Made by a program: the position numbers and the translations under genes. The notes under the pieces were generated by a model. That model was given only the letters and a program-made list of their open reading frames with translations, made no database searches and was not told where the DNA came from. DNA of 64,000 bases, from positions 3,534,001 to 3,598,000 of the forward strand of contig NZ_CP125957.1 in assembly GCF_030064125.1 (NCBI RefSeq). The letters are read 5' to 3'. Positions within the stretch are counted from its first letter, which is position 1. Each line of letters opens with the position of its first letter. Positions 27,279 through 36,834 of this stretch are shown piece after piece. Source of the stretch: Pseudomonas sp. G2-4 (lineage in GTDB: Bacteria > Pseudomonadota > Gammaproteobacteria > Pseudomonadales > Pseudomonadaceae).

Positions 27279-28811
27279 CTACTTGAGCCCCAACCGCCGC
27301 GCCAGCTTATGCAGGTTGCTCGGGTCAACCTCCAACAACCGCGCCGCCCCCGCCCAGTTCTGCCCGCAGCGTTCCAGGGCCTTGAGGATCGCCTGCCGCT
27401 GGCAACCATCGACCGCTTCGCTCAAGGGCTGGGACGGTGTATCGAGCGCTTCCGGAGGCGCCTCGAGCAGCGCGTGCGTCATGGAGGTGTTGGCATTGAC
27501 ATCCAGATCCAGCACCTGCGGTTCCAGGGTCATGATCAGGCTGCGACTGGCGCCCCGGCTGAGTTGTTTCAGCGCAGCACGACTGATCACGTGCTCCAGT
27601 TCCCGCACATTACCCGGCCAGCTGTACGCCAGCAGCGCCTGTTCGGCCGCCGGTGACAGGCGCAACCCGCGCAAGCCCAGGCGTGTGCGGTTCAGTTCGA
27701 GGAAGTGCCCGGCCAGCATCAACACATCGTGGCCGCGCTCGCGCAACGGAGGGATCGGCACCGGGTAGACCGAAAGCCGGTGGTACAAATCGGCGCGAAA
27801 CAGGCCATCGCGAATGCTGTCGGGCAGATGCCGGTTGGTGGCGGCGATGATCCGCACATCGACGTGCAACGGCTTGTCCGCCCCCAGGCGCTGAATCTCA
27901 CCGTTTTGCAGGGTGCGCAGCAGCTTGGCCTGCACACTCAGCGGCAACTCGCCGACCTCGTCGAGAAACAGCGTGCCGCCATTGGCCGCGTCGAAACGCC
28001 CGGCGCGGTCGGTCGTCGCCCCGGAAAACGCGCCTTTGACGTGACCGAACAACTCGCTTTCGGCCAGGGACTCCGGCAACGCCGCGCAATTGACCTGGAC
28101 CAACGGCTTGTGGCCGCGCCGGGACAAGCGATGCAGACGCCGGGCGAACAACTCCTTGCCCACCCCGGTTTCGCCCAGCAACAGCACCGGCAGTTCGGAG
28201 TCGGCCAGTACATCGAGCTCGTTGAGCAGCTGTTGCAGCCCCTCGCTGCGCCCGAGGATTTCGCCCTCTTCGGCCGGCAGCCGCAGGTCCGCCGGGTCAC
28301 TGCGCGAGGCCCGCAGGCTACGGTTCTCCTGCTCGAGTCGAGTCACCCGCACCGCCGCCTCGATCTGCAAGGTGCAGCGCTTGAGCTCCTCTCGGGCGCG
28401 GCTGTCGAACGTACCGGCGTGCAACGCATCCAGGGTGATCGCGCCCCATAGCCGGCCTTCCACATACAGGCTCACGCCCATGCAGTCGTGCACCGGTAGC
28501 GGCTCGCCGACGTGGTCGTCGAGCAAGCCGTCATAAGGATCCGGCAGGCGACTGTCGGGCTCGAACCAGGTGGGTTCGCGCGAAGCCATGATCGCCGCCA
28601 GGCGTGGGTGCTGGGCAATCACGAATCGACGGCCCAATGCCTCGTGGACCAGGCCTACGGTCGCCACGGGCCTGAGGCTGTCATCGTCCAGGCGCAACAA
28701 CCCCACGGCGCCGCTGTTGAAGTATTCGCGCAGGGTCTGCACCAGACGCTGCAATCGCACCGCATTGGGCAGCTCGACGATCAGGTCGGCGGCCAGGCTT
28801 TCACGCAGCAT
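27279..28811 (-). CDS. norR: Nitric-oxide-responsive sigma-54 activator NorR
   Basis: Enhancer-binding protein that senses NO through a mononuclear iron in its N-terminal GAF domain and drives sigma-54 promoters. It has 510 residues: GAF (about 1-175), AAA+ (about 185-420) with Walker [35 protein letters not shown] and R-finger region [14 protein letters not shown], and a Fis-type HTH at the end ([37 protein letters not shown]). The sigma-54 contact loop reads GAFSGA instead of the common GAFTGA. It is divergent from ytfE; the shared gap holds three NorR-type sites, the nearest touching the norR start, so autoregulation is likely, as in E. coli and Ralstonia. Confidence 0.9.
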
Positions 28812-28869
28812 GGTAATGAAGACCCTCCAGGGTTCGTTTGACCCTTGGCAACCAGGGTGACAATCACCC
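28812..28869 (+). promoter_or_regulatory. Three NorR-type enhancer sites before ytfE
   Basis: Three inverted repeats of the form GGT-N7-ACC: 28812-28824 (GGTAATGAAGACC), 28830-28844 (GGGTTCGTTTGACCC) and 28855-28869 (GGGTGACAATCACCC). Centres are 19 and 25 bases apart, and the last lies 48 bases before the -24 GG. GGT-N7-ACC is the published binding pattern of Ralstonia NorR (GT-N7-AC for E. coli), also present as three copies there. Confidence 0.85.
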
Positions 28870-28908: not shown

Positions 28909-28924
28909 TGGCACGCCGGCTGCA
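28909..28924 (+). promoter_or_regulatory. Sigma-54 promoter of ytfE
   Basis: TGGCACG-CCGG-CTGCA, with GG and GC exactly ten bases apart, as the -24/-12 rule demands. Transcription would start near 28935, about 36 bases before the ytfE start. Confidence 0.85.
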
Positions 28925-28971
28925 AAGTCCGGGTCATCTGTCCCTCCCGGGATTCAACCCAAGGAAACATG

Positions 28972-29649
28972 ATGAGCCTAGAACTGCTGGAACAAAGCCT
29001 CGGCCAACTGGCCTGCGACATTCCCGGTGCCACCCGTACCTTCCATCATTACAACCTCGACTTCTGTTGCGGCGGGCAAAAATCCTTGCGCGAAGCGGCC
29101 CTGGGCAAAGGCCTGAACCCACTGCTGATCGCCGATGCCCTGCGCACTTTGCAAGCCGCCGGCGAACTGGGCCATGACTGGCGCGACGAGCCCCAGGCGC
29201 TGTTGATCGCGCACATCCTGGAACGCTACCACGCCCGCCATCGCGAACAACTGCCAGAGCTGATCCGCCTGGCCCGTCGCGTCGAACAGGTCCATGGCGC
29301 GCGGGCCAGTTGCCCAAACGGCCTGACCGATCACTTGCAGGACATGTATCAGGAACTCGAAGGCCACATGCTCAAGGAAGAACAGGTGCTGTTCCCGATG
29401 CTGCAACAGGGCCTGGGCGAACGGGCCTTGGCGCCGATCCAGGTGCTGCGCTACGAACACGAGCAACACGGTGAAGCCCTGGAAACCATGCTCGCCCTGA
29501 CCGACCAGATCACCCCGCCCGCCGACGCCTGCAACACTTGGCGCGCCCTGTATCGCGGGCTGGTGGAATTTCGTGACGACCTGATGCAGCACATTCATCT
29601 GGAAAACAATGTGCTGTTCGTCAATGCGATGAAGCCCACTGCTCGCTGA
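28972..29649 (+). CDS. ytfE: Di-iron iron-sulfur-cluster repair protein YtfE/DnrN (NorA)
   Basis: Hemerythrin-like di-iron protein that restores Fe-S clusters damaged by NO; also known as RIC, ScdA, DnrN or NorA. It has 225 residues: an N-terminal ScdA_N part with HHYNLDFCCGGQKSL (the conserved CC pair), then a four-helix domain with metal-binding His/Glu (LIAHILERYHARHREQLPELIRLA, EGHMLKEEQVLFPML, YEHEQHGEALE, MQHIHLENNVLF). Of the two adjacent ATGs, 28972 is spaced better (6 bases) from AAGGA than 28969. Control by NorR and sigma-54 is read directly from the upstream sites. A REP pair follows. Confidence 0.92.
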   Translation: MSLELLEQSLGQLACDIPGATRTFHHYNLDFCCGGQKSLREAALGKGLNPLLIADALRTLQAAGELGHDWRDEPQALLIAHILERYHARHREQLPELIRLARRVEQVHGARASCPNGLTDHLQDMYQELEGHMLKEEQVLFPMLQQGLGERALAPIQVLRYEHEQHGEALETMLALTDQITPPADACNTWRALYRGLVEFRDDLMQHIHLENNVLFVNAMKPTAR

Positions 29650-30247: not shown

Positions 30248-31438
30248 TCATCCCGGATGCCCATCCACCCGGGCCTTCAACAGCATCGGGCCATAGCGCC
30301 AGGCATAAAGGCCGAACGCCAACGTCCAGCACAGCCCCGCCAGCCACAATGCGCCCAACGGGAACACCAGCACCAACAGCACACGGCTCACACACGCCAG
30401 ATTCAGCAGGACGAAGGCCAGGGTCATGCCCGCCGGCGGCTCGAGGGGACGTCCGGTATGGCCCAGGCTGACGCGGGCAATCATCGCCAGGATCAACCCG
30501 GCCATGGCGCCGATGGTCAGGCCATGCACCGCGAGGCTCGGATTCACCGGCACGCCGAAGTGCCACAGCGCCATACCCAGGCACGCCACCGCCAGCCAGC
30601 CGTAGGCGAGATGCAGCGACCACAGCAGCGGCACCCGCCACAAGTCCCGATCATGCCAACGCACCAGTCGAATCCCGTGCCCCACCGCCAACGCGGCGAA
30701 CAACAGGCCGACCCAGGCACTGGCCGACAGCGCCGGACCAAAGGCATAGAGCAGCGCCACCAGCGCCGACCCCGCCAGCAACAGGCGATCGAGCCACGGC
30801 CAGGGAGCGACGCCCTCTACCCGGCCCAAGCCGCGCTGGGTGAAGAATGGAATGACTCGCCCGCCGATCAACCCCATCATCGCCGCCACCAGCCACAAGC
30901 CGGTGAGCACGCTTTGGCGTTGCAAGCCCTCGTTGTGCTGCACCAGGCCGTACATCGACAGCGCATCGGCGGCGGCCAACAGCAGCAGGACCAACACAAT
31001 GGGATAATTGCGCTTCTGCCGCACGCGCCACAACGTCACGCCCATCAATGCCGCGACCGCCAGGGCGAAACCCAGCTCCAGCACGGTCAGCAATGGCCAG
31101 GGCGCATCGACCAACCAGGCCAACCGCGCGCCCAACCACAATGACGCCAGCGCCGCCAAGCGCTTGCCGCTGATACCCGGGGTACCCGTCCAGGTCTGCA
31201 CCGCCGTCAGCAGGAACCCGGCGATTATTGCCAGGCCGAAGCCGAACAACAGTTCATGGCGATGCCAGCCCAACCAACCGCCGGCCGGCTGCCAGGCCGA
31301 CAACCGCCCGGTGAACGCCAGGAGCCAAAGGGGAACGGCCACCAGCGCCAACCCACAGCCCGCCAAGAACAACGGCCGAAACGCCAGGCGCCACAGCGGC
31401 AAAATGGCCATGGCCTTGCGACGGTCAAGCACTTGCAT
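30248..31438 (-). CDS. nnrS: NnrS family heme-copper membrane protein
   Basis: Multi-span inner-membrane protein of the NnrS family, found with denitrification genes and shown in Vibrio and Rhodobacter relatives to bind heme and copper and ease NO stress. It has 396 residues with about twelve hydrophobic helices. Motifs include WHRHELLFGFGLAIIAGFLLTAVQTWTG, GGRVIPFFTQRG, LHLAYGWLAVACLGMALWHFG, HGLTIGAMAGLILAMIARVSLGHTGRPL. An imperfect DNR/ANR box lies about 92 bases upstream. First gene of a pair with the CopD-like protein. Confidence 0.9.
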   Translation of the reverse strand: MQVLDRRKAMAILPLWRLAFRPLFLAGCGLALVAVPLWLLAFTGRLSAWQPAGGWLGWHRHELLFGFGLAIIAGFLLTAVQTWTGTPGISGKRLAALASLWLGARLAWLVDAPWPLLTVLELGFALAVAALMGVTLWRVRQKRNYPIVLVLLLLAAADALSMYGLVQHNEGLQRQSVLTGLWLVAAMMGLIGGRVIPFFTQRGLGRVEGVAPWPWLDRLLLAGSALVALLYAFGPALSASAWVGLLFAALAVGHGIRLVRWHDRDLWRVPLLWSLHLAYGWLAVACLGMALWHFGVPVNPSLAVHGLTIGAMAGLILAMIARVSLGHTGRPLEPPAGMTLAFVLLNLACVSRVLLVLVFPLGALWLAGLCWTLAFGLYAWRYGPMLLKARVDGHPG

Positions 31439-31529
31439 ACACCACTCCTCTGCCTCACCGGGGATCTGGCCCGCTAGCGAGGTACGACAAATCAGGGTTC
31501 GGATGATCGGCTATCGATGCTGGCAGGCC

Positions 31530-31543
31530 TTGTCTCAGATCAA
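31530..31543 (-). promoter_or_regulatory. Imperfect DNR/ANR box before nnrS
   Basis: TTGTC-TCAG-ATCAA: one half matches the TTGAT-N4-ATCAA consensus exactly, the other has two changes. Its distance to nnrS (about 92 bases to the ATG) suits a class II activator site. No clear -10 is seen. Confidence 0.5.
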
Positions 31544-31633
31544 GCCCACTACCTGCCCGGACAGATACTTGCAAGGGGCCTGCCGAAACTGCTCCGCGCC
31601 GAGTGCAGTTCTCCAAAAAAGCCCATTCCCCCC

Positions 31634-31722
31634 TGTGGGAGCGAGCTTGCTCGCGATGACGGTGGGTCAGACAACTCAATACTGACTGATCCGACGCCAT
31701 CGCGAGCAAGCTCGCTCCCACA
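31634..31722. repeat. REP pair (family B), near-copy of 29673-29761
   Basis: Same 89-base unit as the pair after ytfE, in the same orientation. It ends 8 bases before the first NorR-type site of the dnr promoter. Confidence 0.88.
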
Positions 31723-31729
31723 GGCATCA

Positions 31730-31789
31730 GGGTATTTATCACCCTGACAGGGTCATTCGAACCCTAATGCGCCAGGGTTATTTATACCC
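31730..31789 (+). promoter_or_regulatory. Three NorR-type enhancer sites before the dnr operon
   Basis: Three perfect GGGT-N7-ACCC repeats: 31730-31744 (N7 ATTTATC), 31750-31764 (CATTCGA) and 31775-31789 (TATTTAT). Centres are 20 and 25 bases apart, and the last is 48 bases before the -24 GG of a sigma-54 promoter. This geometry equals that of the ytfE promoter (19, 25, 48). Confidence 0.82.
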
Positions 31790-31828
31790 TAACTCCCGGC
31801 AACCCTCGAAATACAAGGACGGCCGGCA

Positions 31829-31844
31829 TGGCCCGTCTCTTGCT
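31829..31844 (+). promoter_or_regulatory. Sigma-54 promoter of the peptide-dnr-dnrP unit
   Basis: TGGCCCG-TCTC-TTGCT, with GG (31830-31831) and GC (31842-31843) ten bases apart. Predicted start near 31855, leaving a short leader with ribosome site GAGGT before the first ATG. Confidence 0.78.
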
Positions 31845-31878
31845 CAAGCAGGGCATAGACTTAAGCCCGAGGTAACCC

Positions 31879-31968
31879 ATGAAAAACGTCGCTCTGCCAC
31901 TGACCTGGTTCATAGTGCTCTCTTGCGTCGTGGCGCTGGCCAGCAGCCTGTCCCTCAGCCTCGTCTGA
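31879..31968 (+). CDS. 29-aa single-helix membrane peptide at the head of the dnr operon
   Basis: Too short for ordinary gene calling. The ATG lies 5 bases after GAGGT (31869-31873) and the peptide MKNVALPLTWFIVLSCVVAL... is hydrophobic almost throughout, enough for one transmembrane helix, with Lys2 as the only charge. It is the first open frame after the predicted sigma-54 start and lies 34 bases before dnr, so it would be made whenever dnr is. It could be a real small membrane protein or a leader peptide affecting dnr translation; I do not know a homologue. Confidence 0.6.
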   Translation: MKNVALPLTWFIVLSCVVALASSLSLSLV

Positions 31969-32002
31969 AGCCGATTACCTTCTTGCCACAAGGATTCATG
32001 CC

Positions 32003-32686
32003 ATGGTGCTCCACCGTGTCCATCACCAGATTCTGCGCAGCCATCACCTGTTCGAGCCATTGAACGACGAACAACTCGACGAATTGATGAGTACCAGTCA
32101 ACTGCTGAACATTGACAAGGGGAACCCGCTGTTCCGCCAGGGAGAACCGGCGCAGGCGTTTTATTTCGTGATCTCCGGGGCGGTGAAAATCTACCGCCTG
32201 ACCCCGGACGGCCAGGAAAAAGTCTTCGAGGTGATCGGCGAGCGCCAGACCTTCGCCGAAGCCATGATGCTGATGGACACCCCCAACTACGTGGCCTCCG
32301 CCGAAGCCGTCGGCCCGACCCAGGTGTACCGGCTGTCCAATGCCACCTACATGCGCCTGTTGCACAGCAACAGCCAGTTGACCTTTGCCCTGCTCGGCAA
32401 GCTCTGCGTGCGTCTGCACCAGCGGGTCAACGAGATTGAAACCCTGTCGCTGAAAAATGCCACCCACCGCGTGGTGCGCTACCTGCTGACGCAACTGGTG
32501 CGCCTGCAAACCGTGGACAGCCAGTTCGAACTGCCGATGGCCAAGCAATTGATCGCCGGGCACCTGTCCATCCAGCCGGAAACCTTTTCGCGGATCATCC
32601 GACGCCTGATCGATGAAAAAATCATTACTCAGGATGGTCGCCAGATCGCCATTCTCGATCGCCTGCGTCTGGAACAGTTCGAATGA
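32003..32686 (+). CDS. dnr: NO-sensing CRP/FNR-type regulator DNR
   Basis: Heme-dependent activator of the nir, nor and nos genes. It has 227 residues: a cAMP-type sensor domain (FRQGEPAQAFYFVISGAVKIYRLTPDGQEKVFEV ... FAEAMMLMDTPNYVASAEAV), a dimer helix (RLHQRVNEIETLSLKNATHRVVRYLL) and a HTH with recognition segment AGHLSIQPETFSRIIRRL. The N-terminus has no Fe-S cysteines, which separates it from ANR/FNR. It closely matches P. aeruginosa DNR in length and wording. The ATG has AGGA 8 bases upstream. Its own promoter appears to be NorR/sigma-54 controlled, and its stop overlaps the dnrP start. Confidence 0.93.
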   Translation: MVLHRVHHQILRSHHLFEPLNDEQLDELMSTSQLLNIDKGNPLFRQGEPAQAFYFVISGAVKIYRLTPDGQEKVFEVIGERQTFAEAMMLMDTPNYVASAEAVGPTQVYRLSNATYMRLLHSNSQLTFALLGKLCVRLHQRVNEIETLSLKNATHRVVRYLLTQLVRLQTVDSQFELPMAKQLIAGHLSIQPETFSRIIRRLIDEKIITQDGRQIAILDRLRLEQFE

Positions 32687-36791: not shown

Positions 36792-36834
36792 ATTCTAGGA
36801 AGCAAGGGCTCGAAAACCGCTTGATGGCGATCAA
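36792..36834 (-). promoter_or_regulatory. norCBD promoter with perfect DNR/ANR box
   Basis: TTGAT-GGCG-ATCAA at 36821-36834 is a perfect FNR-family palindrome. On the minus strand a -10 TAGAAT (36792-36797) lies about 33 bases from its centre, the class II arrangement with a start near 36786. Confidence 0.88.

Follow-up and report, generated by a model that had tools for sequence, protein, structure and literature searches.

The dnr locus and its neighbours

The 64-kb stretch of Pseudomonas sp. G2-4 DNA analysed here, called the window, carries dnr downstream of norR, dnrN and the divergent gene nnrS, with norC, nirQ and nirS further on. The features that bear on dnr control are the following.

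27279..28811, minus strand: norR (its product is called NorR1 here), with GAF, AAA+ (GAFSGA loop) and Fis-type HTH domains
28812..28869, plus strand: three predicted NorR sites between norR and dnrN, starting at 28812, 28830 and 28855
28909..28924, plus strand: sigma-54 element of dnrN, TGGCACGCCGGCTGCA, with the 53-bp distance to the last GGT that is also seen at dnr
28969..29649, plus strand: dnrN/ytfE, iron-sulfur repair di-iron protein (NF008221, 325.6 bits, cut-off 254)
30248..31438, minus strand: nnrS, divergent from dnr
31530..31543, minus strand: FNR-like box, TTGTCTCAGATCAA, assigned to the divergent nnrS
31633..31723, no strand assigned: REP-type inverted repeat pair, recognised by eye, ending 6 bp before site 1
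31730..31744, plus strand: predicted NorR upstream activator site 1, GGGTATTTATCACCC, with a counterpart in 72 loci, the GT-N7-AC core being a condition of detection
31750..31764, plus strand: predicted NorR upstream activator site 2, GGGTCATTCGAACCC, offset by 20 bp from site 1
31775..31789, plus strand: predicted NorR upstream activator site 3, GGGTTATTTATACCC, offset by 25 bp from site 2
31829..31844, plus strand: predicted sigma-54 -24/-12 element, TGGCCCGTCTCTTGCT, with GG-N10-GC
31879..31968, plus strand: predicted single-span membrane peptide of 29 residues, a shortened DnrO, MKNVALPLTWFIVLSCVVALASSLSLSLV
32003..32686, plus strand: dnr, NO-responsive regulator DNR of the CRP/FNR family (PF00027, PF13545)
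36821..36834, minus strand: perfect FNR/DNR box before norC, TTGATGGCGATCAA
38743..38756, no strand assigned: FNR/DNR box between nirQ and nirS, one mismatch, TTGATCGCCGTCAA

NorR1 has the make-up of a NorR protein: a GAF domain with the residues of the NO-binding iron, an AAA+ domain, an HTH domain and a score of 689 bits against the curated family NF003451 NorR (cut-off 476). Its HTH_8 match stays below the Pfam cut-off (16.5 of 22 bits), and its loop reads GAFSGA, not GAFTGA. By alignment, it keeps R75, Y98, D99, H111 and C113 of E. coli NorR, all of which are described as affecting the iron centre (PMC2941729). Position 81, an arginine in E. coli NorR that is described as critical for repression (PMC2941729), is an alanine in NorR1. 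RpoN is encoded in the same genome. The dnr product has a CRP/FNR fold nearest to a solved DNR (best PDB match 3dkw, 'DNR protein', E 3.3e-94), and DNR boxes stand at the nir and nor genes of the window. The promoter between norR and dnrN has the same architecture as the candidate promoter before dnr, with an identical last spacing, and dnrN, as the presumed target of NorR1, serves as an internal reference. Because the dnrN sites start immediately next to the norR start codon, NorR may also repress its own gene.

A candidate NorR/sigma-54 promoter before dnr

The sequence-only reading had placed three GGGT-N7-ACCC sites and a -24/-12 element before dnr, and all of them are exactly where it put them. 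The -24/-12 element, TGGCCCG-TCTC-TTGCT, has one mismatch to TGGCACG-N4-TTGCW, and 53 bp separate the GGT of site 3 from its TGG. Transcription of dnr would be expected to start near 31855. GGGT-N7-ACCC occurs five times in the window against 1.10 expected, a count reached by one of 100 shuffles; the remaining two copies (28830 and 28855) are both between norR and dnrN. Throughout the 6.65-Mb genome, the exact 20/25 triplet is found without mismatch only once, at dnr, the next best match having two mismatches, and the paired-site pattern has 19 matches (seven at dnr and norR-dnrN, 12 elsewhere) against nine for the reversed control. A scan of the window for sigma-54 elements alone is not significant (13 found against 17.7 expected), in contrast to the combination of triplet and sigma-54 element, which is.

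Two other origins or uses of the sites were considered and rejected. Chance or base composition as the source of the triplet was rejected on the strength of the shuffles and the whole-genome pattern scans. The divergent nnrS was rejected as the user of the sites, as the sigma-54 element is oriented toward dnr and nnrS has a box of its own. In one relative (L066), the triplet also aligns on the minus strand with a sigma-54-like element toward nnrS, which looks like a fortuitous reading of palindromic sites.

Conservation among relatives

Conservation in relatives had been named beforehand as a test of the sequence-only reading, and the reading passes it: triplet and sigma-54 element stand before dnr in 72 of 81 loci, a set made of the window and 80 Pseudomonas records (L001-L080) that were the best of 157 relatives, so that the set favours the lineage of the window. 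In the 72 element-bearing loci, sites 1 and 2 are 20 bp apart in 64, sites 2 and 3 are 24 or 25 bp apart in 71, and the GT of site 3 lies 52-54 bp from the -24 element in 69, a constancy that is partly a condition of detection, as the detector leaves 6-8 bp of play per site. In the same loci, the promoter lies anywhere from 53 to 727 bp before the ATG. In two of the 72 (L057 and L058), the element is the dnrN promoter, with dnr behind dnrN. In three others (L060, L072 and L075, accepted via an offset chosen after their displacement had been seen), an inserted REP-type sequence of about 163 bp parts the intact triplet from the promoter, so that site 3 lies 215-217 bp from the -24 element. An intact but displaced triplet is what one would expect of a looping enhancer, and these loci would amount to a natural enhancer-distance experiment.

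A stricter detector, with at most two sigma-54 mismatches and no offset for the displaced loci, accepts 69 of the 81 real regions and, under otherwise the same conditions, none of 4,050 dinucleotide-preserving shuffles; the opposite strand passes once, in L066. Of 1,800 control pieces taken elsewhere in the loci, none of which starts within 3 kb upstream of dnr, 101 pass. Each of the 101 begins nearer than 5.2 kb to dnr on its upstream side, in the stretch that holds the norR-dnrN promoter; the geometry was determined for 57 promoters of the norR-dnrN type. Over the 210 sites of the 70 loci with a full or GAF-less NorR1, GT and AC are fixed by the construction of the detector. The flanking G (96%) and the flanking C (100%) are not needed by it, and the seven bases in the middle vary.

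A survey of the family covers a wider range, with some genomes in both sets (e.g. L001 and L115). The dnr gene is present in 106 of 298 genomes, and 70 of the 106 upstream regions were examined, the 36 left out being 34 of group g15, one of g9 and one of g18. At least two sites and a sigma-54 element occur within 1.5 kb in 29 of the 70 regions: 16 of 22 in g1, 12 of 14 in g15 (in L135-L143 the first site lies beyond the stretch cut), one of two in g16 and none of 32 in the other groups.

Association with NorR1

The element goes with the presence of norR, as well as being conserved, and both agree with the earlier proposal of a NorR/sigma-54-type promoter before dnr. In the 81-locus set, all 68 NorR1-bearing loci have the element (in L013 the norR gene ends at the contig edge), a figure that is not a genus-wide rate because the set favours the lineage of the window. 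Only two of the 10 NorR1-less loci have it (L068 and L069), both with altered sites and L068 with a norR fragment. A natural GAF-less NorR, consisting of AAA+ and HTH domains only, stands beside dnrN in L057, L058 and L063, with copies in L102 and L103; two of the three former loci have the element, both at dnrN. Removal of the GAF domain from E. coli NorR is described as abolishing NO control (PMC2941729), and the GAF-less proteins may therefore be constitutive.

On the dnr tree, four independent pairs on well-supported branches can be compared, of which 2.8-2.9 agree on average and none disagrees (median p 0.25). When L068, L069 and L124 are counted as having kept their sites, altered as these are, 1.6 agree (p 0.5), and the test repeated without L183 (promoter beyond the stretch examined) and L144/L145 (66% NorR) has the same outcome. 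With four independent pairs on supported branches, the joint change of NorR1 and element gives a direction, not a proof. NorR1 is also not sufficient, as G029, G046, G090 and G168 carry a NorR1 of 77-78% identity and have no triplet within 1.5 kb of dnr.

FNR-type boxes and control by ANR or DNR

In P. aeruginosa, dnr is controlled by ANR according to the accessible part of a review (PMC8139620), and the P. aeruginosa-like locus L166 has an FNR-like box at -75 with two mismatches. If the box at 31530 played the same role in the window, ANR or DNR would control dnr and the NorR sites would add little. FNR-type boxes are indeed found at -76 to -78 before dnr in L057, L059 and L061, none of which has a triplet directly before dnr. 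Against such control of the window gene stands the position of its box: 473 bp separate it from dnr, compared with 92 bp for nnrS. Over 62 triplet loci, the FNR-like box (the one nearest nnrS where a locus has several matches) is 86 +/- 14 bp (35-108) from the nnrS start and 466 +/- 82 bp (265-656) from dnr; it tracks nnrS rather than dnr. The earlier statement that no DNR/ANR box can be seen before dnr holds for 420 bp, in which no FNR box was found in the window at up to two mismatches, and fails further upstream, where the box at 31530-31543 lies. An FNR box close upstream of dnr, as in the P. aeruginosa type, is missing from the window. Nor was a sigma-70-like promoter found at 31440-32010, in a kind of scan that misses many. 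Control of dnr through the box at 31530 is accordingly judged unlikely. Because the FNR-type box remains in relatives lacking the triplet, among them L057, in which the box still lies 76 bp before dnr and no nnrS was seen next to dnr, the lineage seems to have swapped dnr promoter types.

The NorR2 paralogue

The genome encodes a second NorR (NorR2, C1:1043865-1045382, L110) that is 53% identical to NorR1 and lies beside a flavohaemoglobin-like gene, taken by eye as hmp. This protein, instead of the neighbouring NorR1, might be the main ligand of the dnr sites: it is present here and in NorR1-less genomes, the geometry of the hmp promoter is nearly equal (-97/-78/-52), and the GT-N7-AC cores are alike. 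The finer motif speaks against it. The three sites upstream of hmp read GTC-N5-GAC in 18 of 18 cases from six genomes, as do all three E. coli NorR sites, whereas none of the three dnr sites of the window does, and only 13 of the 210 sites in the 70 loci with a full or GAF-less NorR1 do. Moreover, the element is gone together with NorR1, and NorR2 is kept, in L016, L047, L050, L054, L059, L061, L062 and L065. Binding of the dnr sites mainly by NorR2 is therefore improbable in the window, about as much so as control by ANR or DNR.

The situation may differ where NorR1 has been lost. GTC-N5-GAC is found in five of the six sites of the NorR1-less loci L068 and L069 (against 13 of 210, Fisher p 1.3e-5, relatedness ignored) and in all three sites of the NorR1-less L124, i.e., in eight of nine sites over the three loci. 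L034, the sister of L124, still has NorR1 and already shows two GTC-N5-GAC sites. This pattern suggests that NorR2 may take over the dnr promoter once NorR1 is lost. The sigma-54-like element of NorR2-hmp has GA at -12, not GC (TGGCATGGAATCTGAT), and five relatives have CTGAG there.

A third account, in which the triplet is a by-product of the neighbouring REP-type repeats or of composition, is suggested by the REP-type pair ending just before site 1 but is hardly credible, since none of the 4,050 shuffles matches, the spacing is kept in 72 loci though the distance to dnr varies, and the sites are intact where a REP-type insert has parted them from the promoter (L060, L072 and L075). The pair in the window is presumably a REPIN.

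Expression of dnr in P. donghuensis P482

NorR-activated transcription of dnr predicts that dnr mRNA moves with NorR-type targets, and published RNA-seq data on P. donghuensis P482 support this. In tomato exudate, the accessible part of the report gives log2 fold changes of 3.23 for dnr, 4.99 for nnrS, 6.36 for ytfE, 6.13 for hmp and 4.2-4.4 for norB/C/D, and nir genes are not induced (PMC10256816). The presence of NO in the exudate is the inference of the P482 authors, the treatments were harvested at different times, the growth test was done with shaking and that part of the report says nothing of how the RNA cultures were aerated; cio/cco changes in the same table also point to other respiratory stress (PMC10256816). 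P. donghuensis strain HYS (L067) has the triplet. The sequence-only reading further held that DNR turns on nir and nor. Its nor half agrees with the joint rise of dnr and norCBD under an NO signature; its nir half does not, and the absence of a nir response shows that dnr rising by itself does not suffice for nir. In the same data norR falls (-1.67; PMC10256816) while the presumed NorR targets rise.

The 29-residue peptide and the probable origin of the arrangement

Between the candidate promoter and dnr lies the open reading frame of the 29-residue peptide, which would be the first gene of the dnr transcript. Neither Pfam nor NCBIfam has a family for it or for DnrO. Among short DnrO forms, 83 of 85 have exactly 29 residues, with a pN/pS of 0.40 (some genomes are counted twice), and from this constancy of length and the pN/pS the peptide seems still to be selected as a protein. 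A full DnrO of 170 residues is present in L070 and L073, and the relatives of the window keep only its N-terminal membrane segment. The peptide persists in the NorR1-less L016, L047, L050, L054, L062 and L065 and in L063, which has a GAF-less NorR1. It is missing in L067, L076 and L080, where the promoter sits close to dnr, and also in L057, L058, L059, L061, L132 and L133.

In group g15, which we regard as Stutzerimonas-like by its gene order and size, 12 of the 14 loci examined (L134-L143, L180 and L182) have dnrN with a NorR-type element upstream of dnr, as does L179, one of the two in g16. Of these 13 loci, 11 have a DnrO-like frame between dnrN and dnr, the exceptions being L179 and L180. 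Where visible, norR is divergent from dnrN (L134, L179, L182 and L183, and by position G190, G130 and G198); in the L180 genome it is on another contig. In L070/L130, the element is followed by the full 170-residue DnrO and then dnr, and norR is about 90 kb away. Probably, a dnrN-dnrO-dnr operon under one NorR-type promoter, as in g15, was split, and dnrO-dnr kept or gained a copy of the promoter.

Comparison with known systems

Vollack and Zumft reportedly found in 2001 that the operon order in P. stutzeri is dnrN-dnrO-dnrD and that NO induces dnrN and dnrO transcripts. This operon resembles the window in its genes and, as far as the available accounts go, in a NorR-type triplet with a sigma-54 promoter whose transcript can reach dnr. 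In P. stutzeri, however, one promoter serves dnrN, dnrO and dnr, whereas in the window dnr probably has a promoter to itself, dnrN remains beside norR and only 29 residues are left of dnrO. At the g15 locus L135, unlike the window, an FNR-type box can also stand directly before dnr. The available part of a comparative genomic study predicts NorR sites in P. stutzeri before dnrN and hmp, and dnr is not among the NorR targets that it names (Rodionov et al., 2005; PMC1274295).

E. coli norR-norVW (NC_000913) shares with the window three GT-N7-AC sites and a sigma-54 element with GG-N10-GC, at site spacings of 21 and 24 against 20 and 25. Its target is an NO reductase, whereas that in the window is a regulator; its sites are of the GTC type, and the last one is 66 bp from the -24 element, compared with 52 in the window. 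P. aeruginosa has the same regulator gene and the same downstream targets as the window. Unlike the window, the P. aeruginosa-like L166, whose DNR matches PDB 3dkw at E 1e-146, has no triplet within 1.5 kb and only a 52% NorR in addition to its box at -75. In Vibrio, as here, two paralogues NorR1 and NorR2 are told apart by a few site bases, the targets being norVW and hcp there and dnrN/dnr and hmp here (Rodionov et al., 2005; PMC1274295, in its accessible part). The labels NorR1 and NorR2 used here correspond neither to those of Vibrio nor to the 'NorR2' named in the accessible part of a study of F113 (PMC3570484). No published test of NorR at dnr turned up among the open-access papers searched. 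A NorR promoter upstream of dnr is not wholly unprecedented, as g15 has a NorR-type dnrN promoter with dnr behind it. What appears to be new is a dnr gene with a probable dedicated NorR/sigma-54 promoter of its own, in the P. fluorescens lineage.

Two proposed successive uses of NO

Judged by its sites and their geometry, their conservation and co-occurrence with NorR1, and the lack of another recognisable dnr promoter, the segment 31730-31844 is very probably a NorR-activated sigma-54 promoter dedicated to the 29-residue frame and dnr, through which NO would be used twice in series. NO would bind the iron in the GAF domain of NorR1, whose gene lies 3 kb off, and NorR1 assembled on the three sites would open sigma-54 polymerase at about 31855. 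The DNR thus made, itself needing NO, would then act at norC and nirS through their FNR-type boxes. With NorR as an apparent second NO sensor that turns on dnr in the P. fluorescens lineage, denitrification might begin only after NO has been detected twice. A broader scenario is possible but, taken as a whole, rather doubtful: dnr would have been freed from ANR and oxygen and made to depend on NO only, with NorR1 for its making and NO again for DNR activity; NorR2 would have taken over by drift to GTC-N5-GAC after separate losses of NorR1 (L068, L069 and L124); and the peptide may tune the transcript.

In the order described for P. aeruginosa, oxygen (ANR) stands above NO (DNR). If the proposed promoter works as predicted, soil and root bacteria of the P. 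fluorescens lineage would commit to denitrification once NO passes a threshold, and DNR could be loaded whenever plants or neighbours release NO. This would bear on the emission of NO and N2O, and P. aeruginosa would be a poor model for these bacteria. Their natural variants, with displaced sites, motif drift or a GAF-less NorR, make distance dependence, hand-over between paralogues and lost NO control testable.
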